64,000 bases of DNA. It comes from Pleodorina starrii. Taxonomy: Eukaryota; Chlorophyta; Chlorophyceae; Chlamydomonadales; Volvocaceae. This document shows positions 22,915 to 55,980 of this stretch, in pieces. The stretch spans positions 1,720,501-1,784,500 of the forward strand of contig BRXU01000024.1 of the NCBI GenBank assembly GCA_030267565.1, in the 5' to 3' direction. A program made the translations under genes and the position numbers. Under the pieces are notes generated by a model. The model made no database searches and had not been told where the DNA came from. It worked only from the letters and a program-made list of their open reading frames with translations. Numbering within the stretch: position 1 is the stretch's first letter; each line of letters starts with the position of its first letter.

Positions 22915-23278
22915 CTGAGAACGATTGCATACTTGGCTCGTTTTCGGGAGTCCTTTTGCTTGTATTATATCAAATCCTATGACAATACACTTTCGATAAG
23001 GCGGCATCGGCGCATCACCACAAACATTATTCCCATCATGTGTCGTCCAGCGTCGTGCATCTCCTCCGCTTTTTGGAGACTTTGTGGTACACCGTATTTA
23101 TGGGCGTCTGTGTATCTCAGTTGTCATTTTCGGCATATGGATTGAAGAAGTGTGATTGCGGGTACTAAAAGAATACGGCAGCACATGGGCAGCATTTCCC
23201 GTGAGTTCCATGAATAGAGGTGGTCTTTTGTGAAGCCGCTGTTCGGGTAAGGTAGTGGGAGATGAGAGATTGGCAGTT

Positions 23279-23440
23279 CAGCTAGGTCACCCGGTAAGCA
23301 ATGCCGATATAAACGGTATGATGATTTTAGCAGAGTACCCATTCCAAAGGCATACGACCACACTTTGACCAGAATTACGGCGAACACGGAAGCACATTTT
23401 CAGTCAGTTTATACAACAGTATTCGGTATAGCATTTATTT
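23279..23440 (+). repeat. left terminal inverted repeat of the KDZ element
   Basis: It pairs with 34,143-34,296 on the other strand. The copies differ by substitutions and short insertions, for example in the segments following gtatgatgatt and preceding the shared tatacaacagta motif. The outermost four bases are CAGC. Confidence 0.8.
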
Positions 23441-23588
23441 GGAATACAAGCATTTGCAATTGCCAGGTAGTGCATGTAACCAAAGGGTTCCCCGGCCGCA
23501 TTGACCTGACTTTTTGACAGCGCTTTCGTCTAATGCCAACACTGGCATGCGTTGACCGCCTCGTAGGCCTGACTATGGTTGACCGGTG

Positions 23589-26500
23589 ATGGTGCACGAA
23601 GTCGAGAACGTAGAAGAAAGCCTGACGATGGCTTCAGAACAACTTTCCAACGCAGTCATTAGAAGCTTTCGAAGCAAGGCCTCTTGCTCTACATACTATG
23701 GAACGCATAATAGGTCTGTGAATTTCCAGCGGAACAAGGAGAACTTCGTGTACTCCGTGGTCGACGTCGCACACCGGGGCGTCGCGTTCCTGCGGGGGCA
23801 GGTGCGTGCGCGCGCGTGCCAGTGATGCACAAGTACTGGTCAGGGGTTATAATTTGAGAAGGGAGCCTGGATATGCTCCATACACATAATTGGCCCAAGT
23901 ACCCAGCAGCAACCCTAATGCCTCAACCCCCGCGCCAACCCCAACCCTCATCCAACCCTATCCCCACCCCGATTCCCCGCGAACCCTAAGCCCACCCCCC
24001 GATGCCCCATTCCTTTTGACTTGGTCCAGGGGGAGCGCGCTGGCCAGAGCCCCCAAGCTTTCCAGGAAGCCCTCGACACGGCATTTGAGGAGGTCCTGGC
24101 AGCAGGCAACTTGCCAAATGAGCGTGCTAGGGAAGCTTGCAGGGCAGACTTCCAACAAGTCGCAAAGTGGGTTGGCCTGGCAGATGTCATCCAGTACCAC
24201 GTACTGGCCCCCAGCAGGTGGGTTCTACTGGGCAGGGTGAACAAGACACCCAACCTCGTGTACATGTGTGCCCTGTCCCGACCGAAACACGGTTCTTTGT
24301 GCAGAGATCTCCAGGTTCCGGCGCAGTGCGTTGCAGTGGAGTCCGAAGAAGGCCCTCGCTTGCGCACCGGCCAAGAGATTTGGGACCTGCACATACAGCT
24401 GGGCCGGACGGCTGAGGCGATTGCGGACCCACTGTCTTCACGGAAACGGCGGGCTCCCACCCCCTTAGTCATGCGACTGAGGAGGGATCGGTGGAACGGC
24501 ATGGTAAGCGTCTGGCAGCTTTGCAAGTGCCCCTCTTGTCGTTATGGTGGCGGTTTGACACTCAGTATTGGCATTATGGTACTGCAGAGCCTTGTGGAGT
24601 ACATGACGGAGGAACTGCGCCAGGAGAACGACAGCACACGGCAGGCCCCTTTGCGACGTGGCGAGGATATGTGGTTCAATCCAGGTGCGATAAGCTGGGT
24701 CGTTGGGCGCGCTGGTACCCCTCGCTATGCATGGATCGTGCCATCGAAGGATGCATGTCCTGTGTTGTGTAGGGTCCCCGACCACGACTGATGCGACGCC
24801 GCCCTCCATCGGCGACACTGGCGCCTTTTCGGCCCTTCCAGCGGCGACGCAGCCACAGGACCCGCAGTCGCGCCTGAGACAGCAACAGTCCATTCCAGAG
24901 GAGGCCCGTCCGCCCGCTGTCGTAGCGGCGGCGGCCCCGCCCATTAGAAAAGTTAAGCTGGGAATTCGCTGCGGTATGCGGCCAATGCAGCTACAGCAGC
25001 TATCTCAGCTGCCGACACAGCAGCCTCCGCAGCCGGGGCTGCTGCCGCCGTGCACCGACGGCGCTGGCCCACCCGCCGTCCCGGCTACCTGGCCGCCCGG
25101 CCGTCAGCCGCAGCCGCGGCCGCTGGAGGAGCTAGTGGCTCGCCACAGCCCCTCGGATCCACCCGCCGGGCTCGCCGCGCCGTCGTCGGCGACGCTGTCA
25201 CTGCAGCAACAGCCTCCCCTGCAGCCACCACCGCAGCCGCAGCCGCGGCCGCTGGAGGAGCTAGTGGCTCGCCACAGCCCCTCGGATCCACCCGCCGGGC
25301 TCGCCGCGCCGTCGTCGGCGACGCTGTCACTGCAGCAACAGCCTCCCCTGCAGCCACCACCGCAGCCGCAGCCGCTGGAGGAGCTAGCGGCGCGCCACAG
25401 CCCCTCGGATCCACCTGCCGGGCTCGCCGCGCCGTCCTCGGCGACGCTGTCACTGCAGCAACAGCCTCCCCTGCAGCCACCACCGCAGCCGCAGCCGCTG
25501 GAGGAGCTAGCGGCGCGCCACAGCCCCTCGGATCCACCTGCCGGGCTCGCCGCGCCGTCCTCGGCGACGCTGTCACTGCAGCAACAGCCTCCCCTGCAGC
25601 CACCACCGCAGCCGCAGCCGCTGGAGGAGCTAGCGGCGCGCCACAGCCCCTCGGATCCACCTGCCGGGCTCGCCGCGCCGTCGTCGGCGACACTGTCACT
25701 GCAGCAACAGCCTCCCCTGCAGCCACCACCGCAACCGCAGCCGCAGCCGCTGGAGGAGCTAGTGGCTCGCCACAGCCCCTCGGATTCATCCGCCGGGCTC
25801 GCCGCGCCGTCCTCGGCGACGCTGTCACTGCAGCAACAGCCTCCCCTGCAGCCACTACCGCAGCCACAGCCGCTGGAGGAGCTAGCAGCCGCTGGTTACC
25901 TTTCATTTCTACTCCGAGACGATGGTCCTGACGTGGACGGCAACGACTGGCCCGGTGGCATTCCCTTCTCGCCGTGGGTGGCACCGTTATTGCAGCATCG
26001 TATTCAGCAGCCGACACCACCGACGCGCGCGGCCGGTGTGGGTGCACCCGTCGGCCTGGCAGCCTTGTCGCCGGCAACCCTGCTGCTGCAGCAGCAACCT
26101 CCTCAGCAGCCACCCCCCCTTGCAGGCGGTGGCCAGCTGGCAGCCGAGAACTCGCCGGCGGCCGGTGGCGAGCCGGCAGCGAGGACGGAGGTCGGCCCAG
26201 CCGCCGTTGCACCGGCTCAACAACAGGCAGACGTAGGAGACCTTGACGAAGGGTTGGACGAGGAGTTGGCCGCGGAGGAGGAGTTGGCCACAGAGGCGGC
26301 GGCAGCGTCGCCAGGTCACGACGATGACAACCTCCGTAAAACCATGGTCAAAGATGCGCTGGATGTACTGAACAAGCAGCAAGGCATGAACTTCCTTCGC
26401 CTTCGGGCCTGGTGGGAGCCGCCGGACCGTCGGGGATGGGCCCACAGGCCCGCACTACAGCGGTGCCCTTTCCACCACCACCGCCGGAAGGGCTGGTGAC

Positions 26501-27135
26501 GGGCCCCATCGCTGCCAACCACCAGCAGCAGCAGCCGCGCACTGCAGCCGCCGAGCCTGGGACAAGATTCGAGAAAGGGCAGGTAAGCCGTGCCAGTAGC
26601 CGTCTGTATCTACTATCCACAGAGATCCTTACCCGTCACTACATTGTGTTTGCAGAGGGCGGGGACGATCAAGGCTTTCGCCAAGATGATCGAGGACCAG
26701 AGGGACATCACGTGGGACCAGGCCATCGCCCATTGGCGCAGCATCAATGTCGCAGTGGGCGCCATGCCAGATGACAAGCTTATCGACGCTTGGAAGAAGG
26801 CGGCCAAGGCGGCGGGTATTGCTCACGGTGTCCCAAGCAAGCCCAGGGGCGCCCGGGGCGAGGTCACCCGCGGGGACCCGGCGGTCGCGGTGCCGGGTGT
26901 TGATGGCATCCGGCCCGGGGTGCAAGCGGACCCTCGGATGCGAGCGGACACCGCTGCGCTAGACTGGGACGCGAAGGTTGCCGCTGTGGAGAGTGCGCTG
27001 GCGGCGCCTAACCCCGACGGTGTCCGGGTGCAGCAGCTGTATGACGAGCTCCGAGCGCTCGCATGCCCGGTTCCAAACCGGGCCGAGATCCTGCAAAGGG
27101 TCTACAGCCGAATCGCGGTGGCGTTTTCCTCGTAG
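23589..27135 (+). CDS. accessory protein of the KDZ element with 41-43-residue tandem repeats
   Basis: The exons are 23,589-23,801, 24,030-24,503, 24,588-24,684, 24,773-26,582 and 26,656-27,135. Phases match at all four junctions. The long fourth exon needs a two-base frame correction between about 26,315 and 26,410. A 65-nt intron (26,315-26,379) would restore the frame, but its splice sites are weak; an indel is the alternative. The product would be near 1,000 residues. It has an N-terminal unique part (NFVYSVVDVAHRGVAFLRGQ; ADVIQYHVLAPSRWVLLG) and then a low-complexity middle of PLEELAARHSPSDPPAGLAA-type repeats rich in Gln and Pro. It ends in a charged tail with ITWDQAIAHWRSINVAVGAM. I do not recognise any domain. 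Its place inside the inverted repeats, converging on the transposase, makes it a transposon-encoded accessory protein. Confidence 0.65.
25107..25895 (+). repeat. in-frame tandem repeat of 123-129 bp in the accessory gene
   Basis: The anchor gctggaggagcta recurs at 25,122, 25,251, 25,374, 25,497, 25,620, 25,749 and 25,872, giving spacings of 129, 123, 123, 123, 129 and 123. All are multiples of three, so the coding frame is kept. The 6-bp difference is one extra Pro-Arg or Gln-Pro pair. Middle copies are nearly identical, which suggests recent homogenisation. Confidence 0.9.
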
Positions 27136-27644
27136 TTTTGATGGTTCGACCCTTAAATGGCGTTACAGGTTGTTACTTACCGTTGTACGTGTGTAGGTTG
27201 CCGTACAGTCGTGAATGGTCGCTTGTTCGCAAACCTATCTTATTTACAGGATTGATAAAATTTAGTTATTGGTTGCACAGGGCACAGCTACAGTAGCGCC
27301 GTCATGGTGCACAGCTACATGTCATGGTGCACAGCTTCAGTAGCGCCGTCATGGTGCAGCAGCGCCGTCATAGCACCGTCATGGTGCGGTGAGCTTGCGC
27401 CCCCCGCTTTGCTAAATGAGGGCTTCTTTTTTGAAGGGGCGTGTGCCACTGGTGCGCTATTTTCGTGTCGGAGGGCACGCACTGTGGGCAGTGCGGGTCT
27501 TGGACTTGTTGTGAGGGCAGTCCTTCCTCCCTCGCCCGAATGAGAGACTTTATCCCAAGGAGAGGGCTTGCCCCAATGTACAGTTGAAACGATAGGGGTA
27601 TAACAGGAGCCCAGCTGTCATATGCGTTCGGTGGGTTGGGAGGC
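27136..27644. other. 3' region of the accessory gene; no further gene
   Basis: Short repeated phrases such as catggtgcacagcta occur around 27,300-27,390. No TGTAA signal is seen here; the first one on the plus strand after the stop is near 28,121. Confidence 0.4.
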
Positions 27645-27981
27645 AGCCCAAAGGCGCCACGCTAACCCGGCCACCGCGTCACACCGAAAGCGCAGAGGGC
27701 ACAGGGGGGTGCCGGGTCGCAGCCCAAAGGCGCCACGCTAACCCGGCCACCGCGTCACACCGAAAGCGCAGAGGGCACAGGGGGGTGCCGGGTCGCAGCC
27801 CAAAGGCGCCACGCTAACCCGGCCACCGCGTCACACCGAAAGCACAGAGGGCACAGGGGGGTGCCGGGTCGCAGCCCAAAGGCGCCACGCTAACCCGGCC
27901 ACCGCGTCACACCGAAAGCGCAGAGGGCACAGGGGGGTGCCGGGTCGCAGCCCAAAGGCGCCACGCTAACCCGGCCACGCA
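27645..27981 (+). repeat. 76-bp satellite, about 4.4 copies, inside the KDZ element
   Basis: The unit begins cagcccaaaggcgccacgct and includes gcgtcacaccgaaagcgcag. Copies are spaced exactly 76 bp (for example gctaacccgg at 27,661 and 27,737) and differ by only one or two bases. There are no unique spacers, so it is a satellite and not a CRISPR array. Confidence 0.95.
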
Positions 27982-28178
27982 CGGCGTACGAGCAGCGAGT
28001 ACAGTTAAGACAGCTACCGGTATGCAGACCGGATTCGTCGGCTTCGCGGCTGCATCAGATTCCGACCGGCCCGACCGGAGCCAATCCTTGTGCGCCTCTG
28101 GTGCTGTTACGTTCCCATGTAAGCCAGCCAGCGATCCGCGAGCGCTCGCCTATCTCTAAACCTTTTCGGGTTGCACAG

Positions 28179-28787
28179 AAACGGCGGGCGGGCTCTCCCC
28201 TGGTCCGCTTGATCTCTCAGCGGCCCGCCAGTTCTCCCGCGGCGACCTTCAGCCCCACCTTGGACCTCTCCGCGCCCCCGCCTGGTTCCCCTTCCCCCAT
28301 CCTGGTACCGTCCACGGTGCGTCTTGCCGCCTGGAAGTCGTCTCCCAACACTTCAGGCCTCACTCCGCCGGGCTCGCAGGTGACTCCCCTCATTAGGGTT
28401 GTGGACTCGAGGCTGCGGCCTACCCTTCCTGCGTCGCCGGTCCCCGGCCCAGCCTTTTCCTTCCCTTCTCCGACCGCCTTGCCCACCGAGGGGCCCATCT
28501 TCGCGGCTCTACAGGTGCGAGCCTCGCCCTAACTGTCCTGATTCCCTGCCTCTTGCTACTCCTTTGCTCGTCGCCACCCCTCGGTATTCTCTGCCCTTAA
28601 CTCGCTACTCCGCCCCTGCCTATTCCCTGCCTTTCAGGCCCCGTTCGTCGGGCTGCCCGCCTTCGGCGTACCCGCCCGCCTCCCCAGTTTTTCCCCCGGG
28701 CCGGCCGCTGCCACCGGGCCTCCGAACTGCGGTCTGACCTACCCGGCACAGGAGGCCGGTCTGACCTACCCACGCGGGCGAAGGTGA
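28179..28787 (+). CDS. possible small Pro-rich gene of the KDZ element (3' two exons)
   Basis: Exon 28,179-28,514 lies between the acceptor ttgcacag and the donor CAG|GTGCGA. Exon 28,638-28,787 follows the acceptor cctttcag and ends in TGA. They join in phase 0 and give about 161 residues rich in Pro and Ser, such as LSAPPPGSPSPILVPSTVRL and GLPAFGVPARLPSFSPGP. An ATG at about 28,022 opens MQTGFVGFAAASDSD, but its only obvious donor is out of phase, so the first exon is unsolved. No domain is recognised. It may be a second accessory gene or part of a longer transcript. Confidence 0.4.
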
Positions 28788-29254
28788 TGATGGGCCTTCC
28801 CTTCCACGCCTCTCATGCTTCCGTTCCCACCGAAGCTTGTATCCCCAGCCCGCCACAGAGTCCCATGGATCCATCTACATCCCCTCGGGTTGTGTCTTGG
28901 CTGGTGGTGTGATGCGATCTGGGGCATGCTTTGATCACTTTGGGCTCCTGCGACCCACCAATGCGATTAGCGACCGCGTGACCGGGGTTGTGCTGGATTG
29001 CGTTGTGCTGTGCTGTGGTGCGCTGTGCCTTGGCATTCAATTCGGATGTGAGTGGCGCCGGCAGGAATGGCCGGCGATACAGCGTATTAAAATGGGAAAT
29101 GCATCCTCCAGATTCACTTCTGTGCTCCTGTCTCCCTTTTCCTGTAATCTTGTGGCTTTTGCCGAAGCTGCCAAGCTGAATGAAAGTGCTTTTGAGAAAG
29201 AGCGAACGAGACGAGGAGCGGGGACCGACTGCCAAGGGCCCTTACACTGCAGGA

Positions 29255-29570
29255 GAACTCAGCCTAACACCAGCCGCGCACGCGGCTCCCCAAGCCGCCC
29301 ACCAGCCGAGCGTGCAGCCACCCCACACGAAACCCCCACCCCGCGGCACGACCCCAAACCGCAACCGCGCACCACCGAACCGCCGCCACTGCGGCAAGAA
29401 CACACCTGAACCACCGCCCCAACAGGCGCCCCAACAGCCGGGCCGAGGCCCGGCGAAAACCACGGGCGAAACCCCCACCCCCCTGCTGCGCCACACACCG
29501 CCCAACCACACCCAGACAAAGGACCCCCCAGCCCCCCCCAAAGGCCGCCGCGCCCGGCCGTCAACCGGTG
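29255..29570 (+). other. T-depleted, A/C-rich strand-asymmetric segment
   Basis: The plus strand here is nearly free of T, made of phrases such as caccgccccaacaggcgccc. It is open in more than one frame because stop codons need T. It lies between the convergent genes of the KDZ element. A TGTAA on the minus strand at about 29,241-29,245 could end the transposase mRNA just beyond it. Confidence 0.6.
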
Positions 29571-29973
29571 AAGCTCTACTGAGTGAAAGGCAGAATGCCT
29601 GTAACGAGAGAGCTGAAGCGCAATAGTCTCACCACTCGATTACGGTTGTACGACAGTCGCACAGAACCAGACTTAAGAGGCTCCCATCGCTTCGCTCCGT
29701 CGCATCTAAGTCAACAAATAGCACACCGGCTCCAGCCCTCTAGGGGTCTGGAGCCCATTGTAACAAGTACTTGTACACGCAGGTGGTAAGCCGGCTGGTC
29801 CCCACGGTCTGTCCCCTAACCCTAAGTCCTCCGGAGGGCGTAAGTCCGCAAGCTCGAGCTAAAAATCCCCTGCAATCCCAACTGTGCCCCGGCACCCGTG
29901 CATACCGATACAGTCCTGAACCTATTAACATAAGTGGGCCGATGCGGCATCATCCCCGAGGCAACAATCAAAA

Positions 29974-32900
29974 CTAAACGCTGGGGATGCGGCTGTTCGT
30001 CAGCTCGGACTGCAGGGCCTCCATAGCCCTGAGGTGCCCATCCAACAGGAACACACTCCCTGCACATACCCCCAGCTTCTTCTGGCGCGCGGCCTCAACG
30101 CACAGCGCGGCCTTCCTCAGCCACGTGCCCAGACGGGACTTCTCATACCGCAAGAACCCCACCTCCTCGCGGGAGCGCGTTAGGGCGGCATCGGCTTCGT
30201 GGAAGAGGCGGCCGTGGTGTCGCCGCATGGCTGCTGCGCCACTGGACGGTGTGCACCAGGGCGCCAGCTCCCCCGGAACGTACAGCTGCTTTATTTGCTG
30301 CTCAGTTAACCTCACGACCACTTCTTGCCCATCACCCCCCACGCCCTGCCACACGTACATCTCCTCGAGCATGGATCGGATCTGCGCGCGCTTACGGCGG
30401 GCCCGCGCCTGGCTCCGCTTCGCGTCCTTGTCCGTGGCCCCCGCGAGCTCCCGCTCGGCGTGCGTCTGATGTATCTCCAACACCAGCGTCTCGACGCGCG
30501 CCTGGCACCTAGGGACGGGGTAGTGGGAAGATGGGTCGATTGGTTACTACCATGAGGCGAAGCCGACATGAGCGGGATGAACTTAAGTATACGGCTTCCA
30601 AAAGGGGTAGTGCTTCCTCTCCCCGCGGTCACATGTCATCGCCCCCCCCGCCCTCCCCTGCCGCCTCTGTCCGCTCCTTCGAAGTTGCCGACGACCCCCT
30701 GCCCAGACACCACAGGTGCGCCCAGCCCGCCCCGGCCCATACCTCTGCACCTCTCGCTCCTTGAGACGTTGCACGGCGGCGTCAAACAGTGGGTAGCCAG
30801 GTTTCCACTTGCCACGCTCCAAAGGGCTCATCTCCCGCGCCATCTCCATCTTCGTGAGAGCAGCCCGGAGCTTGGCGACCTGGGCTTCAGTGCTCGCGGC
30901 GGCCAGAGCCACAGCGGAAGCACTGGACACGACGGCCAACGAGGGCGCCTTGCCCTGCAGGGCCCTAAGCTCCATCTCGCGCAGCCGGAGCAACACGTAC
31001 TCCACCTGCGTAAGCGCTAGGTGTAAGTGCCATCCTTACCATCCCTTTCACACCCAACCCATTACTGCCGCCTACCTGCCATGCAGCCTCGTCCGGCTGC
31101 GCAGCGTCCTTGCTGGTCGGCACCACCGACTGCACGTACTCCGCTGCTGCCGCTGGAAGATCCACCACGCCGGCACGTGCAGCAGCGTCGACCACCTTGG
31201 CCACTTCCGCCACACCCTCGTCTGCGTGGCAATGAACACGTCAACGATAACGTCTGAAACCCGAACCCCCTCACTTTAAATTATAACCATTCCTTACTGG
31301 CTAGCTTCACGGTGTCACGGTACTTCATCTCCAGCAGCTTGACCATCTTCTTGAACTTCTTGCGCGACAGGGACCTAAGAACCGCCTCGACAAAGTCCCG
31401 TCTGCGCGCCTGCGTCATGTACCGAACCAGGCCCGCCACGGGCTGCACGAGGGGTACGAGCGGGAGACGACGTGAGAGACCTTCCTCCACAATGCAAAGA
31501 CGACACAGCGATTCAACGTGCATTCGGTAACACACCTTGGTGCCGCTCCAAAGCTGCTCAATTTCCTCGCCGATACGGCGCCCGGCTCCCTTCCTGTACC
31601 GCCCGCTGTTGGTCAGCTGGCACGCGACACCGTGGCCGTTGCCGTGCATCCAGTTGACCATGATCTCCAGCCCGGCAGCCTCGGGGGGCAGCTCGGGGTG
31701 CTTGGCAACATACCGTTGCCAAGTACTGGCGATGCGGCAGCCGAAGTCCATGTACACGTGCTTCAGGTCAGGCCGCTGCTGGATGATGTGACCCAGCATC
31801 AGGAGATAGTAAGCAAACTGCTCTGGTGTGCGCATATCGCAGAAGACGCTGCGCAGCGGGACTGTATGCATACACACAGCACCGCAAACGCCGTGAATGT
31901 CGCATGGCCCACTGGCGGACGGGGCGTCAGGGCGCGCACAGTGGAGCGATGACACACATGGTGCATCCCCATCAAAGGGTGTGCAGTCAAGCGTGGGATC
32001 TCCTATCGTGCTGCGCAAGTCGAGCTTCCCGGCCGAGTGCGCGGAGCTGACGCGCGCGTCAACAGGTCCGAAGTACCGGTCAAGGTGAGCTCGGGAATTT
32101 CCCGAACCAGTCCCGCAGTTCGCATAGTGACCAAGTTTGGTTACGGCGTCCAGCGACACTGCCAGTGGGTAAGCTGGCTGAGGCCCGGGCTCCTCCCCGG
32201 GCGACGTCTCCGGGCCTGAAATAGGGAGTACATGACAGGCATATTGGGGTGTGACAACAACGTCGATCACACTGTCACTAGGCCTCGTGGTCATGGGGAA
32301 CGCAATGTCGTACTTGCCATGATGGATTCGGTGGTGGTTGCTCGGCATTGCAAGCTCGACATTGCCGTGGGGACCCCCGGACAAGGGATCCCCCCGCCGC
32401 CCCGCTGTCGTGTGCCAGTCCGTCTTAGGTTGGTCGGCGGCGACGCGGCCACGCGCTCGCTTTCTTTCTGCTGGAGATAACAGGTAATCCTCAGGTAATA
32501 TTCCAGGTAACTGCGTTGCGTTCCCCTCGCCCCGGGCCCTTCTTATTACCCCCCGCCGGACAAGAATGCGAACTACCCAGCGAGAACCGCGCGCGCACAA
32601 CAAGGTAGCGAACCCGCAGTAGGGGGGGGGCGTTGCCTTGAGACTCCGCTTACAGCCGCGGGCCCTTACTATCCACTACTAGGAGCCTCATTACATTTCT
32701 AGTACCCACGGGGAAGGGCGCCTACCGGGAAATGCGGTCAAAAACGCGAAATACCAATCTTGCAATGTGGCATTTTATAAAGGGGAAGCTGTGTGGTCGT
32801 ACCTTCAGCGGGTTTAGGCAGCGTTGCACAGATGGGGCAGTCCGCGAAAGGCCCCGTGTCCATGCCTTCCACACCGAGCGCTTCGAGGGTGTCCACGCTT

Positions 32901-34004
32901 CCCGACGTCCGCAGGTAAGCGAAGAACGAGCCCAGGAATTGACGGTCATCCACGTGCTCGCCAGTACTCTCTTCCACGTATTCAGCGAAGTCTGCGGAAG
33001 GTGGGGTGCGCGGGTAAATAATGGTGTGAGGATGACATTGGCAGAGTGGGAAGCGCGGGACATCATGGGGTACATTGGGTAGGAGTCTGGGGGGCACGCA
33101 ACAGATCGGCAGGGTGCGCGGGTAAGTGGAGCGAGTCGCGTGAAGGGGGGAACGCAGGTCACACTATACGGAGGGTTGGGTGTGTGAAAAACGCGGAGCG
33201 TTTGATTGAACGACCGAACAGACATCAAGAGTCAAGCATGTTGTTCTTTGTGTCCGGTCTGCTGCGCCGCTCCATGCCTGGTATGTCGTCTGTCGATTAC
33301 CTACCGGTAGCGCTGAGCCCTTCCAACCCGAGCACGTTGTACGCCTCATGTACGTGTAGGTCGTACCAGACATGGGGGTCGACCGGGGAACTCGGGAAGC
33401 ATCCTGCTTCGACTGGGTGGGGTACGTACTGCACTTGGCACATCTGGCAGGTGACCGCAGGTACGTACAACGGCCCAGAGGATAGAAGGCCAATATAACG
33501 GACGGTCGTCGCCAGATCCTGCTTGAACCGTCCATCCAGATTGCCGGGGTGGTGCTGCGGGTCTCCGCAGCTGTGCTGCGTGCGCCAGGTGGAAGTCAGT
33601 CCATCCAGGCGGGTCTGGACTAACCCCAGCAGAGTGGCCGACACGTCGCGCTTAATTTGCGCGGGAATTGCTGCGTTCCGCAAGAGCTGCTTCTGGATCT
33701 CGGGGAACTGGAACCCCCACGCCGCCTCCTGCCTTTCCTGCCTTTCGGCCCAAGTGCGAGTATCCGGCGTGCGGTACGGACGCGGGCCCGTCGGATGGTC
33801 TGGCGGGAGATCTGTGTCCTGGTCTACAACTACGTCCTCGACGGGATAGTTTACTTTCAGGCGCTTTGTCGCAGTCCGGGGCACCAACTGGCCAGGTCTA
33901 GGCTGTCGTCGAGCTGAAATTGGTGTGGAATGGCCAGGGCAGCAAGACACACCGATAGAGATCTTGTTTGGAAGCCGCCGAAGTTTCTTCTCGCTCTCGG
34001 CCAT
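29974..34004 (-). CDS. KDZ-family transposase, six exons, 916 residues
   Basis: This is the DDE (RNase H-fold) transposase that cuts and reinserts the element at its inverted repeats. The exons are 34,004-33,305, 32,991-32,803, 32,215-31,298, 31,221-31,076, 31,005-30,743 and 30,508-29,974. All junction phases agree and the sum is 917 codons including the stop. The N-terminal half has a CxC-type zinc-binding region (HSCGDPQHH; VTCQMCQVQY; then GCFPSSPVDPHVWYD, the usual phrase of KDZ proteins) and CPICATLP at about residue 286. Catalytic candidates are Asp in AVSLDAVTK (about 319), Asp in HVYMDFGCR (about 453) and Glu in RIGEEIEQLW (about 513). HGNGHGVACQL and GRYRKGAG sit between the last two, as is typical of the family. 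The C-terminal third is Lys/Arg/Glu-rich helical sequence. The start is the first ATG in the open frame (MAESEKKLRRLP). Confidence 0.88.
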
Positions 34005-34142
34005 ATTAAAGAGTAAATTGGACAAGCATAGCGGTCTGTGTGTCGTTAGAGGACACGAATAGTGGTCCGAAACGTGACCTTCTATATGCAGAAGTTTGCA
34101 ACTTATTTACGACAATACATGTATCCCTGTGTAATTGGTGTA

Positions 34143-34296
34143 AATAGAATACCGAATGCTGATTACTGTTGTATAAAATGTGCTTCCGTGTTCGCCGTAA
34201 TTCTGGTCAAAGTGTGGTCGTATGCCGTTAAAATCTGTATCCTGCCACAATCATCATACCGTTTATATCGGCACTTCTTACCGGGTGACCTTGCTG
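34143..34296 (-). repeat. right terminal inverted repeat of the KDZ element
   Basis: It is the reverse complement of the left end and runs from a region ending tttaca to the terminal CAGC (GCTG on the plus strand). The neighbouring GGCAGTT at 34,297-34,303 repeats the 7 bp just before the left end. Confidence 0.8.
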
Positions 34297-34361
34297 GGCA
34301 GTTGGGGGCATTGACGTCAAGAAGGAGGTCGAATCAATATATTACAGTACATGGAATCAAG

Positions 34362-34612
34362 GTGGGGCGCGCCAGGCACGTTTCGCCGTCGAGTCGTGAA
34401 GGGCGGGGGGGCGAGCCAGCCACGCCTCGCTGTCAAGTCGTCAAGTCAGTCATTTATGAAAGGGGGGGCGTCGGGGCGAGCCAGCCACGTTTCACCGTGA
34501 AGTCAATCAATTAGTAAAGGGCGGGGGTGGGGGGGGGGCTCGAGCCAGGCACTTTTCGCCGTAAAGACGTCAAGTCAATCAATTAGTAAAGGGCGGCAGG
34601 CGAGGGGGATAA
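34362..34612 (+). repeat. tandem repeat family F, about four copies
   Basis: The copies share gagccagccacgtttcgccg, then aagtcaatcaattagtaaag and ggcgggg, with a spacing of 60-75 bases. Two to three further copies lie at 35,272-35,505, beyond an unrelated 660-bp segment. Confidence 0.75.
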
Positions 34613-50429: not shown

Positions 50430-53400
50430 TTGTGCGGCCCCTTGTCTTGCAACTTGCCTCGTCGTGAAGAAGCCCAGACACAGCAACAGTCGCAGCAGGA
50501 ACCGCAGCGACAAGCGCTGGGGAACTCAAGTTGCGGACAGCGGCGTGCTGTAAGAGACGGCGCCTGGGGTACGCCGGCGCTGCAGGACCGCGGCCGCGCC
50601 AGAAATGCGGCGGCGGACCTTGCTTCGGCGCTTGGGGTACCGAAGCCATGGACCGTGCAGGATCAGCCGTCGTACGCGCCGCTGCTGCTCCGGCGGGCAA
50701 CGGGGCCGTCGCCGCTCGCTGAGGATGCCCCTCTGCCATCAACAAGGCCGTACGACCCCGCTTCTGGAGGTGGCCTGGCGTGTGGTGGCGGCGGTTCTGA
50801 GACCAGCTGCTACGGCACCCGCGCTGACGGCAGTGATAGTACCGGAGAAGCATTGCTGGGTTCGCAGTACAGCGTTACGCAGGGCGGCGAGGGCCGGACC
50901 GAACTAGTTCGGGGCCCGCAGGCGAGCCTTGCGGTCAGCACGCCTCGGTTGTCTTTGTCTGCCGCCGCTGCCGCCATCCTGCGCTTACATGAGCAGCAGC
51001 GGCAGCGGCACGCCGCTCTGGTACCATTGTGGGATGGTCAAAGCCAGGGGAGGGTTCCGCTTCCGCCGCTAGGATTAGGCAGCCCTTGTTACCAGGCCAT
51101 CTCACAGCCGCCGGGCAGCAGCAGCAGCAGCCAGCGGGAGCCGCATGCGCCAGCGGCAGCAGCAGCAGCGGCTTCGGCATCAGTAGGACTGGTAGTCGCA
51201 GCGACGACAGGGACTGGGGAGGCGGTGGCGTCGTCAGCAGCGACGGCAGAAGTTCTGGGGCGGCGGCAGTGCCGGTTGGTTACGCTGCCGGCCGGTAACG
51301 ACGACGAGGAAGGGCAGGTGACATTACGGGCTGTGCACGGGAAACCGGGGCTTCGAAGACGGACGACTATGGCGGTGGAGGACCAAGCTGAAAGGTGCAC
51401 ACCATCACCACCGCGTGGGGGCAACCACGTTGAAAAGTGGCAGGGAAGGGCGCGAAGCCCGACGGCGGAGGACCGCCGCACGGCCCCTCTCATGCATCTC
51501 GCTTCCAGGCCATCCCCCGCCGCCGCTGGCAGCAACAGCAGGAGTAACAGGTGCAGCATTGCCAGCAGCAGGACTTGCGGCAGCAGTAGTAGCAATAGCA
51601 GTAGTAGCAATAGCAGCAGTAGCAGCAGCAGCGAGGCATCAGTTCTGCCCGTTCTTCTGCCAAGTCCGACCAGAACTGCAGTCGCAGCGGTGGCACTGTC
51701 GAAGACTGCCGTCCTCTCTGGGTTGTCATTCGGTGTCGCGGGCGGCGACAACGGCGGCGGGGGCGGCCGCGGCTGGGGGGAGGGTCGCGAAAGTGTGCAG
51801 TACCAAAGGGGTCACAACTCCTGCGGCAACGACAACAGCAGTGCTGGCGTAGGGCGGCGGGGGCCCACCAGCGCCGTTGCCGCCAGGCGGCTGATGCGCG
51901 CTATCACCGGCTGCCACCACTGGCGGCAGCTGCGTGCCCTACTCCAAGAGTACGGCGACTGCCTGAACGCTCTGCACGTGACGGCGGCACTTGGCAAGCT
52001 GACACGGATGCAGCTGCCGCCTCCGCCGTCTCCGTCGCCGCCGCGGGTGCCGCCAAGCTTGCCGGAGCGCGGCTCGCCCTGTCTGTCTCTGCCAGCTGGG
52101 GGGAAGTTGGCCCCCGCTGGTGAGGTTGCGGAGGTGCAGGTGGGTCGATGAGGTCGCCATGACACGTCTGCTTGAGGGTGGCTAGGGCCTATGGGCGGTA
52201 CGACCATGAATCAAAGGGTGGGTTAGGCGTTGGGGTTTGGGTATTGGCCATCTGCTTTGCTGCTGCTGCATACCTCGCATCCTCCAGTGTGAGGTTGCAG
52301 CAGCAAAGCAGATGGCCGTGGCAGGACCCCGGGGGTCCCGACGATGAGATGGGGTAAGAGCGGGGACCCTGACTAAGGCTCAAGCGGCTGGGCAGTGTCC
52401 CTCACAACAGCGGCGCTTCCTTAGCAGTCTCAGTGGGATCCTCCGGCGACGACACCCCCCCTTCCCCCTTGGTGACGGCACCGCGGAGAGGATGGCTGGT
52501 TGGTTGGTTGGTTGGTTGGCTGGTTGGGGAATGTGCGCAGCGGATGATGAGCGGGCCAACCAGCGTAATGACCCTGGCAGCCGCTGATGACGGCCAGGCA
52601 AGTGCCGTACCTTGATAGCCGCTTGAGTGGGTAACCATCGCGCCACGCTTTGGACCCCCCTGGCCCCTGGCCTAACAGATCTTGCTGTCACATCTGGAGA
52701 TTGCGCTTCGGCGCCACATAGATGTGGCGTGGGCAGGATCTGGAGGCCTCGCTGACCCGGGGGGCGGCAGCGGAAGTGGAGGCGGCCGTGGCAGCGACTG
52801 CAGCGGCGGTGGCGGTGTCAGACCCGGCCATGTCAACGCCATCACCGCCGGCTCGGCAGCTTGGATCGCGGACATGGCCTGTGAGGCATCCGCGACGGCG
52901 GCGGAGGCGGAGTTGTACGGCATCACCCCTCGGCTGGGGCCCCGCCAGCTGGCCACCAGCCTAGCGGCGCTGGCGCGGATGCGCTCCGTTGGGTGGCCCG
53001 TGGCGGAGGACCGGGCGCTACTGGGTGCGGCGGTTGCGCTTTCCGGCTTCTGGCAGCTGGAATCCTTTCCTTCCCAGGTGTGCGACCGGGTCGGGTCGGG
53101 TCGGGTCGGGCCGTTCACAACGCGATGCCATGCGGTCCTGCCAACTGCGGCCGAGTTGCCTGGGGGCGTGTTGGTGGTGGCGGGCGGCGCAGTGCGGTTT
53201 CGGGGCTGCTCGTTATCACACCGGCACCGGCACATGCCCGCAGAGAACCCCAAGGAAGAACGCCCACTCCCCCAGCTCCCGCCAACTGCAAGCTGCCATT
53301 TCCGGTGTCCCTCCCTCCTCCTCCGCCTCCTCCTCCTCCTCCAGGAGCTCACGACGCTGGTGTACTCGCTCGCAAAGCTGGGACACCACCCCGGCCGCAC

Positions 53401-55980
53401 CTGGCTGGAGGCCGCCTGTGATGCCGCAGCCGGGGCCGCGGCTCAGCGGCACATGTGCGCCCGCCAGCTCTCCACCTTCCTGTGGGCTCTCGCCACGCTG
53501 CGGCACCAGCCGGGGGAGGCATTCATGACGGCATGGACCAAAGCTGCCGTACGTGCCATGGCGCGCTTCAGCGCGTACGACATCAGTCAGGCGCTGTGGG
53601 CGCTCGCCACGCTGCACCGCGCGCGGTCGCCGCCACCTCTGGCGGCGGCGGGAGCAACGGCGGCGGCAGAGCTGCTCTTACCTTGCGCGACGGCACCGGC
53701 TCTGCCGCATGGCCTGCCGGAGGTCTTTGTGCGCGCTGCACTGGGCCGAGCTAAAGCCGTGCTGCGGTCAGCCGGCGGCGGCAGAGGCGACTGCGTTCCG
53801 CAAGACGTGTGCAACATCCTGTGGGCGGTGTCGCAGTTGCAGCTGGGGCCGCCGCGCGCATGGGTCACGGTGGTAGCGTCGGCGCTGCTGTCTGCGCCTG
53901 ACGCCGCAATCGCGAGCTGTCGGCCCGCTGACCTGGCGGGGCTACTGTGGGCACTTGCGCGGATGCTGCCGGCCTCGCCGCCGCCGCGTGGCGAGATGCT
54001 GCGGGTTGTCAGGGCGGCAGCGCGGCTGGTGGGCCAGTGCGGAGAGCAGGACATGAGCAACATCTTTTGGGCGCTGGGCAGCATGCGCTTTGTGCCGCCG
54101 CCGCGGGTGATGCACGCCTTCGGCTTGAGGTTGCTGCAGCTGTGCGTGCAGGGCGCCGCAGGGCCGCAGGTAGGAGGTCAGGTCCTCCCCCGGGGGGAGT
54201 GGACGGGGGAGTGGAGCGGAGCGGAGGTTGGGCGTCTTCGGAGTGGATGTCCAGGATGCCGCCAACAGCCCACAGGAGGACCCACATGCCCGCCCTGCGT
54301 GGCTGTTACGCGTGTGGTTGCATGCTCACCTCACCTCACCTCGCAAGCTCGATTCAAGGCAGCCTTATGGGTACCTGCTGGTAACTGCCGATCACCGCCC
54401 CCGCTGTTGCCCTGTCGCTCCACTTGCTGCTGCCCCGCTGTCCCCCCGTCCGTCCGCTGATTCGCAGCTCCTCTCCACGGCGCTCTGGTGCTGCGTGCGC
54501 CTGCACGTTCCGCCCCGACCGGCGCTGCTGCGTCAGCTGCTTGCGGCCGCCGCCCGCAGTGCGCCTCAGTTTGACCCCCGCAGCGCCCCGCTGCTGCTCT
54601 ACTCGCTGGCACGTCTGCATCACCTGGGCTGGCTGCCCGCCGAGGCGTGCCAGCCACTGGAGCCCGCACGTGTACGGCAGCAATCCCCGCAGTCGCTGCA
54701 GCACCACCGGGGACGGAGCACCATTGCGTGGCCAGCGTGGCCCGAGGTTGCGGAAAGCTGGCAGAGGGACGGGCAGGCGAAGCCGCGGAGTGGGGTTCGC
54801 GCGGACGGAATGTCGGCGGCGCCGCCCCCGCCAGCATCACTGCTGCCGCTAGATCTTGGCCCTTTCCTGGACGTGGCGTTGGGCGGGATGGCGGAGGTGG
54901 AGGCGGAGGTGGGCCGGCCGCGGCTCGCACTGCCGGTGCTGCTGTGGTCGGTTGCCCGATTAGGCCACCAGCCGGACGAGGGCTGGACGCGGGCCTACCT
55001 GGCGCACACATTTGAGGTGCGGAGGCGGGTGGACCTCAACAGGCGGGTGGGGGATAATGAAAACGATTGTTATCCGGGGGGGAGCGTCTCACCGCCTGCA
55101 AGGGCAAACGAGTGGCGGACAGCTGCGAGCAAAGGGGTAGGCCTTGCGTCCATGAATCGTGGAGTCTGAGAAGCGGTCTGCGGAGTGCTTCCGCTGCCGA
55201 GTGCACATCTCCCATTACGTGTGGTACGGCTTGTCGTCAAAGACTCTCCGTGAACGTTCATGTCGCATACCACCACCACAACCACCGCCACCACTGCCAC
55301 CGCAACCACCGCAACCACAACCACCGCAACCACCGCAGGTTTTGCCGCAGCTGAGCCTCGCCGAGGCCTGTCTGGTGGTGTCGGCGCTGTTGCGGCTGGG
55401 CCACCTGCCCCCACCGCTGTGGCTGGCCCGCATGGAGCAACTGATGGCTCGCAGCTGGGGACCCGCGGCGGGGCGGGAGGCGGCGGAGCTGCGGCGGGAG
55501 GTGCACTCGCTGACGCGTCGCACCGCCGCCGCCGCTGCTGGTGCGGTTGAGGCCACCGACGCTGCTGCGCCATGGGTGCCTGCGGTGGGACCTGCAGGCC
55601 CGGGGCCTCCCACGGCTGACGGCGCCTTCGCAGAGGCCCTGTCCCAAGGAAAAGTTCCCAAGCCTGCGGCCGTCATGGTGCGCCGTGAACAGCAACGAGA
55701 GTTTTGGCAGCAGCGGGAACGGCAGCGGCGGCGGCAGCGGGAGGTTGCTGCCCGGGTGCTGGGGCAGCGGCTGGCTGCGTGCAGGGCCCGGCTGGCGCAA
55801 CTGAGCAGCTGCATGACCAGGTTGAGGCGGGGCCTGGCAGTACTGGGGGCGCAGGTGCGGCAGCGGCAGGAGGGGCAGCAAAAGGGACAACAAGTGCGGC
55901 AGTGCGAGTCGCAGCAGCCGCAGGCGGCAGCAGGCGCAAGCGATGGAAGCGCAGTCGATGTGGCAGGAGGGGCCGCATAG
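50430..55980 (+). CDS. OPR (octotricopeptide-repeat)-like protein, probably organelle-targeted; start unresolved
   Basis: OPR proteins bind chloroplast or mitochondrial transcripts and help their stability or translation (TBC2 is an example in Chlamydomonas). The exons are (about 50,411 or 50,430)-52,139, 52,679-53,077, 53,345-54,169, 54,468-55,016 and 55,339-55,980, all joined in phase 0, giving at least 1,370 residues. Degenerate 38-40-residue helical repeats fill exons 2-5. Examples are LTTLVYSLAKLGHHPGRTWL, LSTFLWALATLRHQPGEAFM, VCNILWAVSQLQLGPPRAWV, LAGLLWALARML, MSNIFWALGSMRFVPPPRVM, LLLYSLARLHHLGWLP and LVVSALLRLGHLPPPLWLAR. The first exon is low-complexity (Ser, Gln, Ala runs). The last ends in a Gln/Arg-rich coil with no RAP domain visible. 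The frame is closed by a TAG at about 50,391 and has no early ATG, so an upstream exon with the transit peptide is missing from my model. Confidence 0.75.
52246..52317 (+). other. intronic hairpin with a perfect 21-bp stem
   Basis: The left arm (52,246-52,266) begins ggccatctgctttgctgctg and the right arm (52,297-52,317) is its exact reverse complement. Inside the 30-base loop, acctc (52,272-52,276) and gaggt (52,291-52,295) can pair further. It lies in the first modelled intron of the OPR-like gene (52,140-52,678). Confidence 0.8.
52495..52530 (+). repeat. (GGTT)n microsatellite in the OPR intron
   Basis: There is a run of ggttggttggttggttggtt that then degenerates to ggctggttgggg. Confidence 0.85.

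Follow-up and report, generated by a model that had tools for sequence, protein, structure and literature searches.

Is the 11-kb stretch between matching inverted ends in the genome of the green alga Pleodorina starrii a complete and possibly active KDZ transposon, as originally predicted? The stretch covers 11,018 bp (23279..34296) of the 64-kb window analyzed here. We use "the window" for all 64,000 nucleotides of C24:1720501-1784500 in the P. starrii NIES-4479 assembly (136,057,477 bases in 95 contigs), and coordinates without a contig name refer to it. The ends, the target duplications, and sibling copies elsewhere in the genome establish a real element with real boundaries, and a Pfam match establishes its KDZ identity. 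We consider it very probable that the window holds one copy of a low-copy KDZ-superfamily transposon in which the transposase gene reads intact and a second gene (gene 2) is broken. The family is probably mobilized partly in trans.

Ends, target duplications, and sibling copies

The element is bordered by terminal inverted repeats at 23279..23478 (plus strand) and 34116..34296 (minus strand, about 181 bp aligned). The repeats are imperfect. Their outer 122 bp align without gaps and are 90% matched, and a gapped extension reaches about 180 to 200 bp (about 200 bp on the left side). As predicted, the ends are matching inverted sequences: the outermost 20 bp on both sides (23279-23298, plus strand; 34277-34296, minus strand) fit the proposed end motif, for which we found 0 matches at up to 3 mismatches in 100 shuffles. 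We also found the predicted 7-bp direct repeat GGCAGTT touching both termini, at 23272..23278 on the left and 34297..34303 on the right. GGCAGTT occurs 13 times in the 64-kb window, near the chance expectation of 10.9. The duplication therefore carries weight through its exact placement at the ends and through the 7-bp duplications that three siblings have of their own.

We found these siblings by searching the assembly with the left and right ends separately. Each search gave at least 14 matches, and all copy counts here rest on the matches listed. The 14 ends listed make up five two-ended copies, three single ends (C39:982722, C38:712803, and C1:5870306), and one diverged end on C5. Besides the window copy (23279-34296, contig C24), the two-ended copies are C1a (C1:2126713-2137385), C1b (C1:3280583-3293285), C2 (C2:3222599-3233152), and C22 (C22:1271584-1282140). 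All five listed have CAGC..GCTG termini. Exact 7-bp duplications flank four of the five, at unrelated sites (GGCAGTT, GTCATAA, GTTTTGA, and GCCAATA), and in each of the four the eighth base is mismatched on both sides. Because the same ends are flanked by a different exact 7-bp duplication in each of these four copies, we concluded that the ends are the insertion boundaries, which bears out the original prediction on this point. The duplications all begin with G (4/4); these four sites hint at a target preference. The 10% mismatch between the left and right ends of the window copy is not an age, since the left and right ends of C1b have these same forms. Left-end 12-mers were also sought inside the element, and none recur there.

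The insertion has repeats on both sides. A 139-bp part of the left flank (22979-23117) recurs at 99 to 100% on C18 and C34, so that another repeat adjoins the insertion. GC-rich imperfect direct repeats lie immediately beyond the right end (34361-34605).

The transposase gene

The KDZ transposase gene lies at 29974..34004 on the minus strand. In our model, it has seven exons (33305-34004, 32803-32991, 31536-32215, 31298-31442, 31076-31221, 30743-31005, and 29974-30508) and encodes 885 residues. The introns are GT-AG, the phases agree, and there are zero internal stops. The earlier model thus stands in its agreeing phases and its open frame and has to be revised in its structure, from six exons and 916 residues to seven and 885. 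It had kept as coding an in-frame 93-nt intron (31443..31535, minus strand), and retaining this GT-AG stretch yields exactly 916 residues. The 93-nt stretch is missing in seven of eight homologues (P0001 to P0007), and the most distant, P0008, has another insert of 11 residues there. The acceptor of exon 3, at 32215, is supported by a good splice site and by the spacing in P0002 to P0005.

A profile search of the 885-residue product confirmed the predicted KDZ identity. The product scores 100.2 bits against Pfam KDZ (PF18758), for which the cut-off is 26.6, and the match spans positions 5-213 of the 217 in the profile. A 1001-residue model with the 93-nt stretch, in which exon 3 is also longer, scored 81.4 bits over positions 5-192. 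Genome-wide, there are eight KDZ matches above the cut-off: the five copies and matches at C1:8717424, C1:8717998, and C2:7482206. For the N-terminal CxC cysteine cluster, the CxC3 profile matches the window transposase weakly (E value, 0.22; 11.8 bits) and its relatives P0005 and P0006 at E values of 1.3e-4 and 6.2e-4, in all three cases under the cut-off (26.6 for the window protein). A search of solved structures with the transposase profile returned a single chance-level match, HEXIM1 (E value, 0.7).

An RNase H-like fold would be expected of the KDZ domain, and D319, D453, and E516 are candidates for the acidic catalytic residues of a DDE/D transposase. D453 and E516 are invariant in 8/8 aligned proteins, and D319 is matched in P0002 to P0006, absent in P0007, and unaligned in P0008. 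The male-strain protein P0001 differs from the window transposase at 3 of 633 residues. The transposase gene is open in the window copy, C1a, and C1b, three of the five with two ends. C2 and C22 have a common 1-nt deletion in exon 2 that frameshifts theirs.

The companion gene is broken in the window copy

Gene 2 lies on the plus strand, convergent with the transposase gene, at 23589..26499 (exons 23589-23801, 24030-24503, 24588-24684, and 24773-26499; stop, 26497-26499). Annotated models also splice out 24218-24304. The gene is full length in C1b, where our own model has six exons and 1477 residues; public models have this extra 87-nt intron, and the C1b model P0015 (1252 residues) starts further in. 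The window copy has 3 bp at the deletion junction (26401..26403, plus strand) in place of 1,331 bp of the C1b sequence. Its reading frame then runs into the stop at 26497-26499, for a product of 807 residues if the 87-nt intron is removed, and the residual 3' part (26404..27135, plus strand; last exon, 26655-27135) is in a different frame from the part before it. This deletion refutes the prediction that the element is apparently complete. An identical junction is seen in P0010, a model from the female strain that halts at the frameshift with a truncated tail; the deletion is therefore not confined to this assembly, and the female strain may carry this copy. Gene 2 has been damaged in other copies as well. 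C2 and C22 have a different replacement in common, and in C1a a portion of the 3' end is missing, so that gene 2 is full length in none of the four copies flanked by target duplications.

Within gene 2, a 123-bp coding minisatellite (25108..25886, plus strand) encodes Pro/Gln-rich repeats whose copy number differs among the siblings. A 76-bp minisatellite (27643..27978) lies between the convergent genes. In a further sibling (C39:981222-998221), about 11 kb of other DNA lies within the repeat part of gene 2.

A query with the N-terminal part of gene 2 found seven copies, each adjoining an end of this transposon family, and two distant matches at 40 to 44% (C2:2694999 and C51:258532). Searched against proteins, the N- and C-terminal parts retrieved P. 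starrii sequences alone (6/6 and 9/9); both searches depend on shared short words, and one scored the best 7,988 candidates only, so distant homologues could escape them. The companion protein is so far found in P. starrii only, and each of the seven close copies found has gene 2 sequence. Pfam searches of gene 2 pieces and annotated models (three or four gene 2 sequences per 10-protein set) gave no family above the cut-off, and P0015 had no match among solved structures at an E value of 0.1. The divergent gene 2 relatives P0018 to P0020, from the three P. starrii strains, open with a stretch resembling transposase residues 43-68 (in P0018, 26 residues at 54% identity). They are perhaps a fused or rearranged KDZ relic; their genomic location was not found.

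Evidence for recent mobility

The copies are very similar to one another. Only 1 substitution and one 3-bp gap separate C2 from C22 in 10,554 bp. Identity is 99.79% between the window copy and C1b and about 98.4% between the two subgroups (poorly aligned stretches are omitted from copy identities except in the pairs window-C1b and C2-C22). Because the flanks and duplications of C2 and C22 differ, transposition is the simplest reading of their near-identity, and the family looks recently mobile. The original description "possibly active" can reasonably be kept at the level of the family, since near-identical copies lie at unrelated sites. C2 and C22 have the same frameshifted transposase, which suggests that their last move was probably in trans. 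This reading assumes that the frameshift is older than the move, and gene conversion is a possible alternative.

We propose the following model. The full element encodes a KDZ transposase and a convergent companion protein of uncharacterized function. By analogy with the superfamily, the transposase would bind to the inverted ends, cut the element out, and reinsert it with a 7-bp target duplication. The window copy inserted at GGCAGTT. The 3-bp filler suggests that the internal deletion that broke gene 2 may have arisen when a gap left by excision was repaired incorrectly. Siblings whose transposase is broken appear to have moved very recently, and the family would thus probably work partly in trans. 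A more specific version, which we put forward as a speculation and think rather doubtful, is a two-component volvocine KDZ transposon in which the Pro/Gln-rich companion, supplied in trans to copies that no longer have it, would aid the transposase in mobilization or in escape from silencing.

Alternative explanations

Several observations weigh against our model. C1b, the sole listed two-ended copy with a full-length gene 2, has no target duplication. For the window copy, C1a, C2, and C22, we joined the two flanks and searched the same assembly, and no empty site was found: the joined flanks of C1a, C2, and C22 had no match other than themselves, and those of the window copy had 8 additional partial matches, none of which spans the junction. 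The refuting condition set in the original prediction, an orthologous empty site that contradicts these boundaries, was thus neither triggered nor passed. For the transposase, the male-strain model P0001 begins upstream of the exon 3 acceptor and reads through it, and among the five copies the H114P change is private to the window copy. No constraint is visible between the window and C1b transposases (1 synonymous and 2 nonsynonymous changes). The window and C1a differ by 5 synonymous and 3 nonsynonymous changes; about 75% nonsynonymous changes are expected under neutrality, and all these counts are too small to show selection. Finally, the annotated model P0009, which is identical to the window gene 2 product for 784 residues, crosses the deletion frameshift by way of a 32-nt intron and keeps the C terminus. 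We think that this intron is an annotation artifact.

The element could instead be fully autonomous, with gene 2 a dispensable passenger or still made in shortened form, so that the window copy moves itself. We give this somewhat less than an even chance. The window transposase reads intact, and all four copies with duplications inserted although none now has a full-length gene 2; the losses may postdate insertion, and C2 and C22 share theirs. A product continuing past the deletion, as P0009 models it, would fit this explanation, but the route requires the 32-nt intron, and P0010 stops at the frameshift. The presence of gene 2 sequence in all seven close copies suggests retention for some reason, and the private H114P change also speaks against a window copy that moves itself. 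Improbable in our judgment is a dead family, immobile throughout, whose near-identity comes from gene conversion or assembly error. In its favor, C1b lacks a target duplication, and C2 and C22 are suspiciously alike in a class of sequence that can be misassembled. Against this, C2 and C22 sit in different unique flanks with different exact 7-bp duplications, and an open transposase has been kept in three copies. The multiexon genes and the low copy number would also suit an ordinary host gene pair that came to lie between inverted repeats by chance. We see almost no chance of this, given an end motif without chance matches, copies at unrelated loci, and a KDZ transposase domain, and we rejected it on the four independent target duplications at the same element boundaries.

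Relation to known KDZ elements

Outside P. starrii, one comparison is at the protein level. KDZ transposases of Edaphochlamys debaryana (P0003, P0004, P0005, and P0007) have the KDZ domain and are 46 to 54% identical to the window transposase, and P0004 aligns along nearly its whole length, in a comparison of proteins alone. A short-word protein search returned no E. debaryana homologue of gene 2.

Zisupton and Kyakuja have been annotated in Chlamydomonas (PMC8226300). Kyakuja-3_cRei of Chlamydomonas reinhardtii inserted into a gene and has imperfect inverted ends and an 8-bp duplication (PMC10828217); by its description, it is a green-alga KDZ element with ends like those found here, whereas the duplication is 7 bp here. 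Giant elements of Ectocarpus, KDZ elements among them, carry accessory genes, and their broken transposases were taken as a sign of mobilization in trans (PMC12477816). As described, they resemble the P. starrii element in length, accessory genes, and the trans inference and differ in their brown-alga host and nested insertions. The same paper cites active transposition of a 31.7-kb Chlamydomonas KDZ element. KDZ1 to KDZ3 of Cryptococcus neoformans are active, low-copy elements of about 9 to 11 kb with inverted repeats of 139 to 241 bp (PMC12810828). KDZ1 is about 11 kb and has 241-bp inverted repeats and 8-bp duplications, and those of KDZ2 and KDZ3 are 4 to 8 bp (PMC12810828). These elements are like ours in size, inverted repeats, and copy number but differ in duplication length, in having a CxC1 domain, and in being fungal. 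The Chlamydomonas and Cryptococcus reports of active insertions (PMC10828217, PMC12477816, PMC12810828) outdate, as regards decay, the remark in the original prediction that KDZ proteins are known mostly as decayed or expanded families.

Fungal Kyakuja elements have 7-bp duplications and CA..TG termini, and Zisupton and Dileera have 8-bp duplications (PMC12730594). In Pristionchus, Zisupton has inverted repeats, and duplications were undetected (PMC9297572). Two Kyakuja traits occur here: 7-bp duplications in four of the five listed copies and CA..TG termini in all five. The duplication length is a poor discriminator, because a Chlamydomonas Kyakuja was reported with 8 bp (PMC10828217). The fungal families Kyakuja-1_LB and -2_LB are described as lacking inverted repeats and containing TET/JBP genes (PMC12730594), whereas our element has inverted repeats of about 180 to 200 bp, and pieces of its gene 2 gave no Pfam match above the cut-off. 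The 8-bp duplication of Zisupton and Dileera is absent, as the eighth base differs in four copies. We class the element as KDZ superfamily, without a finer clade.

Active, accessory-gene-bearing, and trans-mobilized KDZ elements are thus already published for Chlamydomonas, Ectocarpus, and Cryptococcus. For a KDZ element of a volvocine colony, we found no description in the literature searched, which is a part of the whole. The present analysis provides exact ends, 7-bp duplications, a transposase model, and differing deletion derivatives for a volvocine KDZ family that looks recently mobile. The uncharacterized companion gene is the part worth following, and the three sequenced P. starrii strains are a practical test bed for 7- versus 8-bp KDZ target choice and for the need for the companion gene.

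Other window content

An Rfam scan of the window gave no match at the gathering threshold. A 594-codon open frame at 52676-54457 (plus strand) has a weak FAST kinase-like match (PF06743, 26.3 bits; cut-off, 27.4).

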